DNA of 64,000 bases from Croceicoccus sp. Ery15 (GTDB lineage Bacteria; Pseudomonadota; Alphaproteobacteria; Sphingomonadales; Sphingomonadaceae). Under the pieces are notes generated by a model. That model did not search any database, was not told the origin of the DNA, and saw only the letters and a program-made list of their open reading frames with translations. The translations under genes and the position numbers were made by a program. This document shows positions 32,970 to 42,450 of this stretch, piece by piece; within the stretch, counting starts at the first letter, position 1, and the number at the start of each line of letters is the position of its first letter. Where the stretch lies: positions 3,533,501 through 3,597,500 of the forward strand of contig NZ_CP087588.1 in NCBI RefSeq assembly GCF_020985305.1, in the 5' to 3' direction.

Positions 32970-33959
32970 TTACGCCGCGAGTATCAACACGCGGTTACCT
33001 GCCGCCCTTTCGCGCAATTCGGCCAGCGACCAGCGCCGTTTCGCGGCCTCGTCCGCGCAATGCGGGCCGACGGGGCGCAGCGATCCCAGCCAGGAATGCG
33101 CCAGCCAGCCCAGCTTTTCCGCTTTGGTCGTATGGGCGCGGTGGTCCCATGCATGGGTGCCCGCCGCCTCTACCTTGCGGGCGATGCCGCCATAGATGCC
33201 GGTGGCGGCCAGCACGGCCCAGCGATGGCGGAACCGCAAACGCGCCGCGCCGATGCGGGCCGAAGCCTCGTGCGCGCGGGCAATCTCGCACGCGCGGTGG
33301 ACCAGCTCGACCAGCTGGGCGCGATACATCGGCTTCATATGCTGGCCGGGCGGGATATCGACATCGACCAGCCATTCGACCGGCAGGTAACAGCGCCCCG
33401 CCGCGTCATCCTCCCACACGTCGCGCACGATATTGGCCAGCTGGAACGCAAGGCCCAGATCGCAGGCCCGCTCCAGCGTATCCTCGTCTTGCGGGGAAAC
33501 GCCCATGACCAGCGCCATCATCACGCCGACCGCGCCCGCGACGTGATAGCAATATTCCATCATGTCGCCCTCGCTGCGCGGTCGCCAGTCCGCCGCGTCG
33601 AGCACGAAGCCCGCGATCACATCGTCGCAATGCGCCTGTGTTATGCCGCATTCGCGCGCCACCAGACCCAGCCCGTCGAACGCGGGATCGCCCGTCGCCT
33701 CTCCGGCCAGCGCCTGCGCGGTGCGGGTGCGGAGCAAGGCAACCCGCTCCTTCGCGCCTTCCTGCTGACCCAGGGCTCCGCCCATATCCTGCGCATCGGC
33801 CAGATCGTCGCAGGCGCGGCACCATGCATAAAGCAGCCAGACCTTTTCGCGCGTTTCGCGGTCGAACAGGCGGCTGGCGGCGGAAAAGCTTTTCGAACCC
33901 TTGCCGATCGCGCGCTGCGCATGGGCGACCAGTTCGGAGCGGGACAGAACCTCGGCCAT
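32970..33959 (-). CDS. crtB: Phytoene synthase
   Basis: Condenses two geranylgeranyl diphosphates to phytoene. The 329-residue protein has the first aspartate motif CRACDDLAD (51-55) and the second in NIVRDVWEDDAAGRCYLP, both needed for magnesium-diphosphate binding. It is the last gene of crtY-crtI-crtB, starting five bases after the crtI stop. Complete and apparently functional despite the frameshift in the upstream crtI; polar effects are possible. Confidence 0.96.
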   Translation of the reverse strand: MAEVLSRSELVAHAQRAIGKGSKSFSAASRLFDRETREKVWLLYAWCRACDDLADAQDMGGALGQQEGAKERVALLRTRTAQALAGEATGDPAFDGLGLVARECGITQAHCDDVIAGFVLDAADWRPRSEGDMMEYCYHVAGAVGVMMALVMGVSPQDEDTLERACDLGLAFQLANIVRDVWEDDAAGRCYLPVEWLVDVDIPPGQHMKPMYRAQLVELVHRACEIARAHEASARIGAARLRFRHRWAVLAATGIYGGIARKVEAAGTHAWDHRAHTTKAEKLGWLAHSWLGSLRPVGPHCADEAAKRRWSLAELRERAAGNRVLILAA

Positions 33960-33964
33960 GCGGC

Positions 33965-35474
33965 TCAGCGCCTTGCCAGATCGGACAGCATCAGCCGCGC
34001 CGTTGCCCGCGCGCTGCCGACCACGCCGGGAATCCCCGCGCCCGGATGCGTGCCCGCGCCGGTGAAATAGAGATTGGTAATCTCGTCATCGCGGTTGTGG
34101 GTGCGGAAATAAGCGCTTTGCGTCAGGATCGGTTCAAGGCTGAACGCGCTGCCCAGATGGGCGTTGAGGTCATGGGTGAAATCGAACGGCGTATAATGGA
34201 ACTTCGTCACGATCCGGTCGTGCAGATCGGGCATCAGCCTTTTCGCAACCTCGTCCAATACGCGCTTTTCAAGGGCGGGGCCTGCCTTGTTCCAGTCCAC
34301 CGGCAGCTTGCCGCGATGGGCGACGGGGACCAGCGCATAGAAGGTCGAATGCCCCTTGGGTGCCATGCCGCTGTCGGTGGCGCTGGGATGGTGGAGATAG
34401 ACCGAGAAATCGCGCGGCAGCACGCCATGGTCGTAAATATCCTCCAGCAGCCCCTTATACCGCGGGCCGAACAGGATCATGTGGTGCGGAATATCGGGAA
34501 AGGTCCCCTTCACGCCGAAATGCACCACGAACAGGCTGGGCGAGAACCGCTTTTTCGCCAGCTTTGCCGCGACCTGCGGGCCGCGCCGGTTGCCGGTCAG
34601 CAAATCGCGATAGGAATGCATCACATCGGCATTGCTGGCCACCGCGTCGAAATTCTCGCGCCACCCGCTGGCGCAGGTGATGCCCGTCGCGCGATTGCCC
34701 GCGGTTTCGATCGCGGTCACCGGATCGCCCAGCCGCACCGTGCCGCCCAGCCGTTCGAAATGTCTGACCATGCCCGCGATCAGCCGGTTGGTGCCCCCCC
34801 TTGGCCCACCACACGCCGCCATCCTTTTCCAGCTTGTGGATCAGCGCATAGATCGAACTGGTCGCCATCGGATTGCCGCCCACCAGCAGCGTATGAAAGC
34901 TTAACGCCTCGCGCAGTTTTTCGTCCGATACAAAGCTGGAAACGATGGAATAGACCGACCGCCACGCCTGATATTTCATCAGCGCGGGCGCGGCTTTCAG
35001 CATGGATTTGAAATCGAGGAAGGGCACATGGCCCAGCTTCACATAGCCTTCGCGCCAGACGCCTTCGGAATATTGGAGGAATTCCTCGTACCCCGCCAGA
35101 TCGTCGGGATTGAGCTTGGCGATTTCGCGCGCCAGTTTCGCATTGTCGTTCGAGTAATCGAAATTGGTCCCGTCGTCCCAGTTCAGGCGGTAGAACGGCA
35201 TCACGGGGACCAGCTCGACATCCTCGTCCATCTCGTGATCGGTCAGCCGCCACAGCGCGCGCAGGCAATCGGGATCGGTGATGACGGTGGGGCCCGCGTC
35301 GAAGGTAAAACCGTCACGCTCCCAGAAATAGGCGCGCCCGCCGGGCTTGTCGCGCCCTTCGACCAGAGTGGTGGCAATGCCCGATGCCTGCAAACGTATG
35401 GCAAGGGCAAGCCCGCCGAAACCGGCGCCGATCACGGCGGCGCGCTGGGGTTTCGGCTTTGTTTCGGAATTCAT
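33965..35474 (-). pseudogene. crtI: Phytoene desaturase, single-base frameshift in a run of seven G
   Basis: The product should desaturate phytoene to lycopene with FAD (GAGFGGLALAIR near the N-terminus). The gene is split into two frames: residues 1-227 run to VWWAKGG, and homology resumes with TNRLIAGMVRHF one base out of register. The break is the plus-strand run of seven C at 34794-34800; six would restore a continuous 502-residue protein of normal length with the C-terminal GAGTHPGAGIPGV motif intact. It may be a sequencing error, a true mutation, or a slippage switch. It overlaps crtY by four bases. Confidence 0.9.
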
Positions 35475-36664
35475 CGATCCACCTTAAGCGAAGAGGGGGC
35501 GCCAATACCGGCCAGCACCAGCGCGGCTTTCGTTAAAGGAACAGGCGGCTTGCCCGCAAGCACCCGCGCCATATCGGCGGTGGTGCTGCCCCCTGCATAG
35601 AAACGTTCGATCAACCCTTCGTTCAAACGATAGAACCGCTGCAATACGCGGTAACGCCGGTCGGGTTCCGCCGCGCCGAACAACATGGCTGCCAGCATGC
35701 GGTAAAACCGCCCGCGCTGCCAGTGCGCCTTGGCATATTGGTGCGACGCGCCCGCGATGGCGGGGCCGTCCAGATGCGGCAGGGCGGCGATATGATGCGC
35801 AAACCGCACCGCATCGGGCAGGGAATAGCTGGTCAGCGGCTGGAACAGGCCCGCGCGCACACCCGCCAGCGCCACGCCGCGGGGCACGCCGCGCCACAGC
35901 GCCGCGAAATCGCCGCCCGTCACCACCGGCAGCACGCCCGTCTCCTCGCGCGATATGCGCGCGATGCACCAGCCCTGTGCGCCGGCATGGTCGGCAATGC
36001 GCTGCGCCAGCGTGTCGCGGTCAAGCGCGGGCGCATCGGCGTAATAGGTATCCTCCACGAACAGCGACTTTTCCGCGAATGGCAGCACATAAACGAAGCG
36101 GTACCCGTCATGCTGCGGCACGCTGGCATCCATCACCACCGGACGGGTCAGCCCGTGCGGCGCTTCCAGTTCCAGCATCTGCCCCGCAAATTTCTGCCAC
36201 CCGCCTTTCAGCGCGCGCAATTGCGCAGGCCCGATCCCGCGCGCGTCGATCACCGCGCGGGCCGCGATCCGCTCACCGCTGTCCAGCACCACGCCATGCC
36301 CGTCCAGCGCGGCGACATTGGTGCCTGTCATTACCGCATCGGGGGGCAGGGCACCCGCCACCGCCCGCGCCAGATTGTCCGACGTCACCGACCGATAGGC
36401 GGTCGGCAGGCTGCGGCGATATTCGGGGAACGCCACATCATAGCCGCCGTCCCAGCGCGCCGCGACCAGCGGTTCGACCAGATCGCGGCTGGCAGGCGCG
36501 ATATCGCTGGCGAAGAACGACCACAGATGATGCCCGCCGATGGCCGGCCCGCCCTCTATCAGCGCGACCGACACATCGGGCCGCCTTGCCCGCAGGGCCA
36601 GCGCGATCAGCGCGCCCGAAAGCCCGCCGCCCGCAATGGCGATATCGAATATCCGCGCACCCAT
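35471..36664 (-). CDS. crtY: Lycopene beta-cyclase
   Basis: FAD/NAD-type cyclase converting lycopene to beta-carotene. The 397-residue protein starts MGARIFDIAIAGGGLSGALI (dinucleotide fold), with EGGPAIGGHHLWSFF and RVIDARG-like AVIDARGIGP, GLFQPLTSYSLPDAV in the middle, and RFYRLNEGLIERFYAG near the end. First gene of crtYIB; the promoter should lie in 36665-36780, opposite the thiC leader. No crtE, crtZ or crtW in the window. Confidence 0.96.
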   Translation of the reverse strand: MGARIFDIAIAGGGLSGALIALALRARRPDVSVALIEGGPAIGGHHLWSFFASDIAPASRDLVEPLVAARWDGGYDVAFPEYRRSLPTAYRSVTSDNLARAVAGALPPDAVMTGTNVAALDGHGVVLDSGERIAARAVIDARGIGPAQLRALKGGWQKFAGQMLELEAPHGLTRPVVMDASVPQHDGYRFVYVLPFAEKSLFVEDTYYADAPALDRDTLAQRIADHAGAQGWCIARISREETGVLPVVTGGDFAALWRGVPRGVALAGVRAGLFQPLTSYSLPDAVRFAHHIAALPHLDGPAIAGASHQYAKAHWQRGRFYRMLAAMLFGAAEPDRRYRVLQRFYRLNEGLIERFYAGGSTTADMARVLAGKPPVPLTKAALVLAGIGAPSSLKVDR

Positions 36665-36788
36665 CGCGCCCAGCCTTAGGGCCAGAACGCGAAGTCAGCC
36701 ATAGCGAAATGGCCGGCGCCGCTGGTCCACGGCGGCTGCTCGTCCTGCGCCCTCTTTACGCTTATGCGATCCGCGCCTAATATCGCCG

Positions 36789-38839
<2,051 letters not shown>

Positions 38840-38858
38840 GGGGTTAAATGGTGATTTG

Positions 38859-39336
38859 ATGCCAGACGAAGAAGACGAAAAATCTGATTGCGTTATTCCA
38901 CCTGCAATGAAAATTGAGTCAGTTTCTAAATATCTGGTCAATCAAATCCCCGAAGAAGCTCGCGATGTTGCTGAGTATGTTGAGGGACAAGCTCACAATG
39001 AGAAGGTATCTCATTGTGAGCTTGTGAAAACAGAGTACGTATTCGCAGAGCGGTATGATGTGTGGGATGTCCACACAGACAAAAATCGTTGGTGGGTAAT
39101 TACAAACCTAACAAATTTGTATCAGCAGTCCGATTTCCCTAGCCTTGATTATTTACTGTCATTTCACATCGGTTTAATGGCACGTTTATCAGCTAAGGAA
39201 GGGAAGAACCATTCAAATGGCGAGGTGGATTTTGCGCCGCTGAGCCGTAAAGTTGATCAAATCTCTCATCGGCTAGACGAGGCAGATGAGGCGGAAGATT
39301 TTCAAAATATCGGTCTGCTCTGCCGTGAAGCGCTAG
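38859..39336 (+). pseudogene. 5' part of an accessory gene cut by IS1380 copy 3
   Basis: N-terminal 159 codons of a protein that, once the IS and one CTAG are removed, continues in frame at 40987 and totals about 305 residues. It starts at MPDEEDEKSD, 19 bases after the thiC stop. The segment contains WWVITNLTNLYQQSDFPSLD and a helical FQNIGLLCREAL motif at the break, which recalls HEPN-like helical domains seen in defence and abortive-infection proteins, though only as a loose resemblance. Base composition is clearly AT-richer than the surroundings, a sign of transfer. In the present sequence it reads on into the IS for about 17 codons before a stop. Confidence 0.8.
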
Positions 39337-40982
39337 CCCGTCGTATTCACCAAACCGGTCCTAAAGGGTTAGCGGGAGTGGCCTAAGCCTCTGATCTGAA
39401 TTAGGAACTGGGTGTCTAAGCCGAACCTGCCGCAGGGCAGAAAATGCCACAGGTCACCCCCGCATGAACAACGATATCGCAAGCGCATTTGGATTCCCAG
39501 CAGTCGGCCGCAAGAAAGTCACAGCCGCTTTCGACGGCGGCCGGCTTACCTCGGATGGCGGCGTGTTGCTGCTGGCACAGGCCGAACGAGCGATGGGGAT
39601 CTGCCAGCGGCTTGCAGCCTGCATTTCCGATCCGCGTGACCCGGGCAGAGTGGTGCATCACCTCGACGATATCCTGCGCGCCCGCATCTTTGCGATCAGC
39701 TGTGGCTATGAGGACGCCGATGATCTCGACGCTCTGCGCGACGATCCGGGCTTCCGCCTGGCGCTGGGCAAGCTGCCGGGATCGGGCGTGGGGCTTGCGA
39801 GCCAACCGACCATGAGCCGGTGGGAAAATGCGCCGACTACGCGCGAGTTGGCCAGGATGATGGCCGCGATGATCGACATCTACTGCGCCAGCTATCCCGC
39901 CGCGCCGGCGGCGGTGACGCTGGATATCGATGACACCTGTGATGTCGTGCACGGCTATCAGCAACTCTCGTTCTGGAACGGTCATCACGGGGAGCGCTGC
40001 TTCCTGCCGATTCATGTCTACGACACCGCCACCGGTCGGCCGGTGGCAATGCTGCTGCGCACCGGCAAGACACCGTCGGGCGCCGAAGCTGCCGGCCACA
40101 TCCGGCGCCTGATGCGCCATCTGCGTCGGCACTGGCCTGAGACGCACATCACCATCCGCGGCGACGGGCACTATGGCCGGCCCGAGGTCATGGCCTTGTG
40201 CGAGGCGGCCGGCGTCGATTACGTGTTCGGCCTGCCAACCAACGCCGCGCTGCGTGCTGATCCCGAAATCGTCGTTGCCGCCGATGCCTGCGCGGTTAAA
40301 CGGGCTCAGCGCCAATATCCGGTCCTGCGAGGCTATGCCGAGACCCGCTACGGCGCCAAAAGCTGGAAATGCCAGCGCCGCGTTGTCGCCCGGATTGAGG
40401 CCAGCACGCTGGGCATGGACATTCGCTATGTCGTCACCTCGCTGACCGAAGGCTCGGCCGAGCACATCTACGACACGCTGTACTGCGCCCGCGGTCAGGC
40501 CGAGAACCTGATCAAGCGCCACAAGAGCCAGCTCGCCAGCGATCGCACCTCGTGCCGCTCGGCGGGCGCCAACCAGATGCGCCTCATCCTGCACACCGCC
40601 GCATACTGGCTCCTGTGGCGAATCCAGCAGGAAATCCCAAGAGCCACCGCACTCGCCACCGCCGAGTTCGCCACGCTGCGCCTGCGCCTGCTCAAGGTCG
40701 CTGCCCGCGTCATCGAAACCGCCACGCGTATCCGCGTCGCCTTCGCTTCGGCTTGCCCGGATGCCGGTGTGTTCAAGGCCATCACCACCAGTCTGCGACC
40801 AGCGCCCACATAGCAAGAGCGGCGGTGCCGCCGAACCCCTGAGCCCCAGTCCATCAACCTCGAAAAGCCCATTGCTCCTGCCGCGGTGAAAAACGCCGGT
40901 GGAGGCGTGCGCCTTGATCAATCAGGCACCGCCACATCGCCGTCCGAACAACACGAAGCGGTAGCCTCATGAATAGGACGGG
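39337..40982 (+). mobile_element. IS1380-family insertion sequence, copy 3 (1,646 bp, diverged)
   Basis: Same length as copies 1 and 2, ending in CCCGTCGTATTCACC on the left and, read inward, CCCGTCCTATTCATGAGG on the right. Flanked by CTAG (39333-39336 and 40983-40986). The sequence differs from the other two throughout, including a different non-coding tail near the right end. It is therefore an older lineage or a separate arrival. It splits one accessory gene exactly in frame. Confidence 0.96.
39464..40813 (+). CDS. IS1380 family transposase (copy 3)
   Basis: Intact 449-residue DDE transposase beginning MNNDIASAFGFPAV. By eye about 40 residues differ from copies 1 and 2 (roughly 90% identity), while the catalytic motifs DIDDT, RGDGHY and RGQAENLIK are unchanged. 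The preceding ATG at 39444, equivalent to the upstream Met in copies 1 and 2, runs into a TGA at once here, which fixes the true start at MNNDIAS. Substitutions are scattered with no stop, so it may still be active. Confidence 0.96.
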   Translation: MNNDIASAFGFPAVGRKKVTAAFDGGRLTSDGGVLLLAQAERAMGICQRLAACISDPRDPGRVVHHLDDILRARIFAISCGYEDADDLDALRDDPGFRLALGKLPGSGVGLASQPTMSRWENAPTTRELARMMAAMIDIYCASYPAAPAAVTLDIDDTCDVVHGYQQLSFWNGHHGERCFLPIHVYDTATGRPVAMLLRTGKTPSGAEAAGHIRRLMRHLRRHWPETHITIRGDGHYGRPEVMALCEAAGVDYVFGLPTNAALRADPEIVVAADACAVKRAQRQYPVLRGYAETRYGAKSWKCQRRVVARIEASTLGMDIRYVVTSLTEGSAEHIYDTLYCARGQAENLIKRHKSQLASDRTSCRSAGANQMRLILHTAAYWLLWRIQQEIPRATALATAEFATLRLRLLKVAARVIETATRIRVAFASACPDAGVFKAITTSLRPAPT

Positions 40983-41426
40983 CTAGTGTTGCTTTCTCGT
41001 TCATTGGCGGAAACTAGTGCAGAGTTTACCCCGGACGATATCAAACGGGCGGATTTCAAAAATTGGTCGGAAGTTGCTGCCGATAATTTGGCGTCGGGGA
41101 GCGGTGCTGCGACAGCGCGTTCTCTTATGAAACATGCCGCTAAGCGAGGATGGGATCATGTTTCTTGGTTGACCCACGCTGGTGCTGCTACGAAATATGA
41201 CGCCTTCGTCGCTTATATGTTCACGACGTTGATAATAGACACATTCTTGATTATGCTTCGCAAACATAGAAGCGGTCTTCCCGAAACGTGTCCTCAGTGT
41301 AGATCGTACAATGTAGCTAGTTTCTATAGGCCGGAGTTTGAAACAGAATCGGGTTACATAAAGGCTTGTCAAAAGTGCGGATGGAATGATGAGCCAGATA
41401 CTATTATAGACGGCAGTAATGACTGA
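40983..41426 (+). pseudogene. 3' part of the accessory gene cut by IS1380 copy 3, with zinc ribbon
   Basis: Continuation of the protein broken at 39336. Joined reading is REALVLLSRSLAETSAEF, followed by a helical stretch (AATARSLMKHAAKRGWDHVS), a hydrophobic segment FVAYMFTTLIIDTFLIML, and a four-cysteine zinc ribbon CPQC...CQKC near the end. A GTG in the CTAG junction (40986) could start a 146-residue fragment, but no ribosome site supports it. No family recognised. AT-rich like the 5' part. Confidence 0.8.
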
Positions 41427-41868
41427 AAAGTTTTATATGATATTATAGATTGGAAAATATCTCAGTCTTTTTGCTTTACCCCTCAAACGCCGGGCGCGGG
41501 CCATCCGGCCCGCTTGGCTTCGCCGCATAAGCGGCGGCGCGCGTTCGCGCTTGCGGGTGTCGCTGACGCGCCCCGGACTTTCGCCAGAGTTTGCGGTTGG
41601 CAACATGACGCTTGGTGCCAGTTGGCAGGGTCGGACTGGAACGGGGCACCGAAGGTGACTCCCGCAAGGCCGACCGGCCGCCCGAGCTTATGCGAGGAAG
41701 CCAAGGCGGGCGGATGCCCGCCGCCCGGCGTTTGAGGGGCCCAAACAAAAAATCCGGCGCCATTCACCGCCCTCTCACGGGCCGCAAGGCCCGCGCTCAA
41801 GCCGCGGAGCCAAAACAAACCACTCATTTTATTTTCCTACACCCCGCCCACCATGCTCATCCTCACGG
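41427..41868. other. Gene-free stretch dominated by a structured inverted-repeat element
   Basis: The 442 bases between the broken accessory gene and the HTH gene hold no supported coding sequence. Open frames on both strands here are by-products of the inverted repeats listed at 41479-41739. The remainder to 41868 is a mix of further short hairpins (GGGCCGCAAGGCCC near 41775) and an AT-rich leader (CATTTTATTTTCC) for the next gene. Confidence 0.6.
41479..41739. repeat. 261-bp element bounded by 54-bp inverted repeats with compensated hairpins
   Basis: Left arm 41479-41532 and right arm 41686-41739 are inverted copies. The outer 18 bases CCCCTCAAACGCCGGGCG match perfectly. Then each arm has its own hairpin with the same ATCC loop but a different six-base stem: CGGGCC/GGCCCG on the left, GCGGGC/GCCCGC on the right. 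The next 20 bases (CTTGGCTTC..CGCATAAGC) differ only at two positions. The three changed pairs are all compensated. This could be a MITE-like or BIME-like repeat or a structured RNA. Confidence 0.8.
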
Positions 41869-42450
41869 ATGACCAAAACCGCAAAAACCCCGCCCGAACC
41901 CGAATATATCCCCGTCGCGCGCCGTGGGCCGCATTGGGACCCGCAGAAAATGGCCGATTTCTTGCGCATGCTTGCCGCCACCCATTCCGTGTCCGAAGCG
42001 GCGCGGTCGGTGGGGATGAGCAGGCAGAGCGCCTATCGCCTGCGCTCCCGATTAAAGGGCACGCCGTTCGATATCGCGTGGGAAACCGCCTTTCGGCAAG
42101 GCTTTGACAATCTGGCCCATGCCGCGCTCGAACGCGCGATGAACGGGGTAGAGGTGCCGCATTACCATAAGGGCGAGCTGATCGGCACCTCGCGCCGCTA
42201 TGACGAGCGGTTGACCGTGGCGCTGCTCAATATGCGCAACCGCTACGGCGCGCCCGCGCTGGGGCGCTATGGGCCGATGGCCGAATATATGTCCGAACGC
42301 TGGGATACGCTGCTGGAACGGGTGGAATATGGCCCGCTCGATTGGGACCAGCCCGAATTCCCGCCCGACCCCGCGCAAGAGGTTCAGAACCTGATCGCCC
42401 GCTTCACGGTGGAGGAGCCTGCGCCGCGCGGCAACCGGCGGCGCCCCTGA
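41869..42450 (+). CDS. HTH protein resembling a small terminase or resolvase-type DNA binder
   Basis: 193-residue basic protein. The segment HSVSEAARSVGMSRQSAYRLRSRL (about 43-66) is a clear helix-turn-helix, and the remainder has a helical body with RYDERLTVALLNMRNRYGAP and an Arg-rich C-terminus. The layout recalls phage small-terminase or transposon-type DNA-binding proteins, but no large terminase is adjacent. Function unknown. It follows directly after the structured repeat. Confidence 0.65.
   Translation: MTKTAKTPPEPEYIPVARRGPHWDPQKMADFLRMLAATHSVSEAARSVGMSRQSAYRLRSRLKGTPFDIAWETAFRQGFDNLAHAALERAMNGVEVPHYHKGELIGTSRRYDERLTVALLNMRNRYGAPALGRYGPMAEYMSERWDTLLERVEYGPLDWDQPEFPPDPAQEVQNLIARFTVEEPAPRGNRRRP

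Follow-up and report, generated by a model that had tools for sequence, protein, structure and literature searches.

The phytoene desaturase gene crtI of Croceicoccus sp. Ery15 is split between two reading frames that meet at a run of seven G, within a carotenoid cluster whose other two genes, crtY and crtB, are uninterrupted. We tentatively favor a real, very recent loss-of-function allele made by slippage in the G run, an explanation to which we give somewhat less than an even chance and which holds only a slight lead over a sequencing error at the same place. The locus lies in the window, that is, the whole 64,000-nucleotide stretch under analysis, and the surrounding genome of the Croceicoccus group is assembled as one contig (3,633,189 bp, completeness 99.99).

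The three genes stand head to tail on the minus strand and nearly touch. The crtY gene (35471-36664) encodes a 397-aa lycopene beta-cyclase that matches TIGR01789 with 457.1 bits versus a cut-off of 215.2, and crtB (32970-33959), encoding a 329-aa phytoene synthase, starts 5 nt downstream of the crtI stop and matches CrtB models at scores below their curated cut-offs. Between them lie a 5′ piece of crtI, ORF A (34455-35474, minus strand, 339 aa), with its ATG at 35474 and its stop codon at 34455, and a 3′ piece, ORF B (33965-34822, minus strand, 285 aa), which represents the C-terminal part of CrtI. Only the first approximately 227 residues of ORF A are CrtI, the remainder being an out-of-frame tail. 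Both pieces exceed the curated TIGR02734 cut-off of 238.1 bits (343.9 and 312.5 bits for ORF A and ORF B, covering positions 1-266 and 213-493 of the 504-position profile, respectively), and the gene thereby scores as a CrtI-type phytoene desaturase while lacking the one uninterrupted frame of a CrtI gene, its frame being broken near residue 227. When four bases at the tract are taken as one glycine codon, reading continues to the stop at 33965 and yields a 502-aa product, of which residues 12-499 align to Pantoea CrtI (PDB 4dgk). A three-periodic coding model places the frame change at the G tract, with the upstream frame open for 341 nt beyond it; by this measure, the split is beyond chance. 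Re-reading the tract and the ORFs thus bore out three elements of the original prediction, which had located the meeting point of the frames at seven C on the plus strand (34794-34800; the G run of the minus strand), given the read-through protein 502 residues and described both neighbors as intact. Gene order, orientation and a 4-nt overlap between crtY and the crtI start are shared with the Sphingomonadales crtY-crtI-crtB cluster, in contrast to which crtI is interrupted here. In C. naphthovorans, too, crtI is immediately followed by crtB (PMC5989583).

The run itself appears to be peculiar to this genome. We surveyed the codons for residues 224-229 at 113 loci of relatives (29, plus 80 from genome contigs, plus 4 longer stretches from relatives that are already in the count), with some species represented twice or more; 102 were readable, while in the other 11 the sequence stretch stops short of the tract position. 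The maximum G run length was 2 at 35 loci, 3 at 55 and 4, 5 or 6 at 4 each, and a run of at least seven occurred in none of the 102, a set that comprises no conspecific strains. At this position, the closest relatives have GGC GGC (L188-L190) or GGC GGG (L191). CrtI relatives at 90-94% identity, among the best 80 of 407 confirmed loci, are Croceicoccus records, and no match to the read-through CrtI exceeded 94% identity among the 120 matches listed from 8000 candidates scored. All 80 genome-contig loci hold a full-length crtI; having been retained as best matches, however, they are biased towards intact genes. A less biased sample was provided by 149 genomes of the family that are at least 90% complete. 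At a threshold of E 1e-60, 136 of these, including the source genome, had a CrtI match and 13 had none, so that natural absence of crtI in the family is possible. Among the 135 other genomes with CrtI, 133 carry it in one open frame, and tabulated matches, with nine doubtful rows opened, revealed no break of the coding frame in any of the 135. Two apparent exceptions were set aside, as a contig end truncates the gene in G099 and a stretch of N interrupts it in the G151 assembly. Seven best matches with a flagged stop were also dismissed: in four the stop falls at residues 497-501, and the other three show no stop on alignment. The shifted tail of ORF A (residues 227-339) had no match at E 0.001 in a set of 5.8 billion proteins, a search that says little because the window's own protein was missed as well.

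We next turn to the age of the break, for which dN/dS (NG86, tract masked) was computed separately for the two crtI pieces against four relatives. The source genome gave 0.06-0.13 for the part preceding the break and 0.09-0.11 for the part following it, compared with 0.07-0.14 and 0.06-0.16 at the corresponding positions among the relatives themselves. On the branch leading to the source genome, the part after the break gathered 26-36 synonymous and 5-7 amino-acid changes, depending on the sister chosen. Judged by these substitution patterns, crtI downstream of the break bears no sign of decay; with the post-break part still constrained, the break would be either very recent or an artefact. 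The intact crtY and crtB add only that the loss, if real, is recent. The original prediction had read them as a pathway spared by selection; intact neighbors are no proof that the pathway is in use.

The favored null allele would have arisen in two steps. Starting from the state seen in relatives, a glycine pair interrupted by a C, a silent change in the lineage presumably created the unbroken G run, and a replication slip at this run would then have thrown crtI out of frame, possibly in culture. Translation would give a 339-aa product devoid of the C-terminal half, and cells would stop at colorless phytoene and form white colonies. This halt is expected because the genome yielded no further CrtI: its seven Amino_oxidase matches comprise the two crtI pieces, a CrtO/CrtD-like protein that reaches 109 bits to TIGR02734 (cut-off 238.1) and was rejected as a compensating CrtI, a pair of PRK07208-like proteins, a glutamate synthase small subunit and a glycerol-3-phosphate dehydrogenase. 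The genome further contains two polyprenyl synthase genes and a gene at L197:1471-2001 that scores over the FA_hydroxylase cut-off but fits no NCBIfam model, and which, from its motifs, we take to be crtZ-like. In Sphingomonas elodea, a crtI knockout accumulated phytoene and formed white colonies (PMC3324416); the predicted outcome here is the same, with the difference that the mutation was engineered there and is natural or an artefact here. A Sphingomonadales survey names a dysfunctional crtI as one possible cause of colorless strains (PMC5989583), and C. marinus is described as yellow-pigmented in a title in the reference list of PMC5740743.

Alternatively, the break may reflect an error of base calling or assembly left uncorrected at a G/C run, in which case crtI of the strain would be intact and the strain yellow; we consider this a serious contender, albeit one also short of an even chance. 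A one-step discrepancy in a G run of a gene otherwise under normal constraint is what such an error would leave, the absence of decay fits it equally well, and the 135 relatives offered no second broken copy. Moreover, the C. marinus type strain, a congener, was assembled from long reads alone (PacBio RS II; PMC5740743). We asked how this assembly fares at its 56 G/C runs of at least seven (69 overlapping matches). One-base faults in such runs are typical of long-read-only assemblies, and slippage increases with run length in sequencing as well as in replication. By the three-periodic model only, 17 of the 56 are embedded in one coding segment with a margin of at least 150 nt, another 13 sit closer to the end of such a segment, and 26, including the crtI run, fall outside any one segment; an earlier pass had flagged 13 of the 56 as possible shifts. 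At seven further runs, a domain match extends across the run without a change of frame (L130, L134, L140, L141, L144, L159 and L173), bringing the unbroken total to 24 runs of 7-8, runs of 8 among them, which speaks against an error in crtI. In the window itself, GGGGGG occurs 14 times on both strands compared with a mean of 57 in dinucleotide shuffles, about four times more rarely than in shuffled sequence.

Two of the 26 runs that could be settled break a gene, and several of the other 30 allow a plausible in-frame reading. Besides crtI, the broken gene encodes a PF04228 zinc peptidase (L152:1932-2787, contig 2058231-2059086; assigned by domain match and relatives), which is out of frame at nine G, the sole nine-G run inside a gene among the settled runs. 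This run, at contig position 2058309, lies 78 nt past the presumed start, leaving the N-terminal residues in another frame than the rest; the three-periodic model, blind near gene ends, had wrongly put it inside one segment. The gene is present in 12 of 13 other genomes of the genus, in all 12 in one frame and with runs of at most 6. These relatives establish the L152 break and thereby rule out crtI as the sole gene broken at a run of at least seven. Two recent breaks in one genome form the pattern expected of an assembly that is weak at long runs, and with two conserved genes broken, one of them at nine G, error becomes nearly as likely as a real allele. The zinc-peptidase break fits error, ordinary slippage or a switch alike.

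Complementarily, frame changes were counted in the window and 53 further stretches (1,120,600 bases), by a census that recovered 112 out of 200 indels planted in one set and 42 out of 60 in another, and that does not see breaks close to the ends of genes. It returned 303 same-strand frame changes, among them 20 candidates whose upstream frame stays open for more than 40 nt beyond the change, and 101 runs of 6-7 located within unbroken coding segments, 30 nt or more from the edge. Homology supported a run-associated break in two of the five candidates examined, crtI and a TonB-dependent receptor gene of the same genome split at a C6 run (L207:14603-17202). Of the remainder, L242:3749 was rejected as a homopolymer break, being a carboxyltransferase remnant in two frames without a homopolymer, and L236 as a frame break, since it comprises two different genes; in L224, one side is without a family match. 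Six other candidates have one repeated sequence in common. The receptor break and its run recur identically in another assembly of the genus (4056 bp, 99.8%, no gap). The C6 break is accordingly real, provided that the two assemblies were made independently, for which their differing sizes and contig numbers speak, and its recurrence at 99.8% identity suggests recent transfer. With this confirmation from a second assembly, real breaks at runs do occur, which counts against an error in crtI, as does the lack of any unexplained run-associated break in the 1.06 Mb outside the window (about 56-70% power, 4 of 19 candidates examined). On balance, a systematic assembly fault at runs is unlikely.

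The original prediction had set sequencing error, recent loss and a slippage switch side by side; the first two emerge nearly level, while the third gains little support. Phase variation, by which frequent changes in run length would turn pigment on and off among the cells of a population, is improbable, even though the run sits inside crtI one slip from an open frame and a nine-G run puts a second gene out of frame close to the start of that gene. As in homopolymer phase-variable genes, the reading frame is lost at a homopolymer, but the run was not found in relatives: a homopolymer contingency locus would be expected to keep a tract of varying length, yet none of the 102 readable loci of 113 has a run of seven or more, and the nearest relatives carry the interrupted glycine pair. 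Seven bases are also short for a contingency tract. Both mutS and mutL are open and score over their cut-offs, giving no sign of a mutator, and a search that left most subscription journals outside its reach found no literature on phase variation with carotenoids. A broader version, a pigment switch in a marine sphingomonad in which the G runs in crtI and the zinc peptidase slip often and yellow and white cells coexist, is if anything slightly less probable. Least probable of all, we regard it as very unlikely that slippage of the ribosome or RNA polymerase at the run allows a certain amount of full-length CrtI to be made from the unaltered gene. In keeping with such recoding, the sequence is well preserved to either side of the break and tandem GGG codons are present at the tract; against it, the site is absent from the relatives read, whereas a programmed frameshift should be conserved, and the surrounding 61 nt fold no better than shuffles (z -0.14, DNA parameters).

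Should the null allele be real, it adds one more crtI allele to those causing color loss and is a reminder that the pathway may be present even in a white isolate. Should the break be an error, the record needs correction, and surveys that count open crt genes mis-score the strain. Wider interest would follow only from a proven switch.

Elsewhere in the window, several other features stood out. A TPP riboswitch precedes thiC (36974-38839) at 36786-36894 on the plus strand; with 53.1 bits, it lies just below the Rfam gathering score of 54.3 and was missed by the default scan for that reason. Further along, a perfect 17-nt inverted repeat with a 5-nt loop (38987-39025, plus strand) falls within a 203-aa ORF (38775-39386). 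A probable insertion sequence occupies 39333-40986, where a DDE transposase gene (39464-40813, PF13701) is flanked by 17-nt inverted repeats that are 94% complementary (39333-39349 and 40970-40986). Finally, a large inverted repeat at 41479-41739, with arms of 83 nt that are 80% complementary and 95 nt apart, lies near a gene for a small protein (41869-42450) with weak helix-turn-helix matches.
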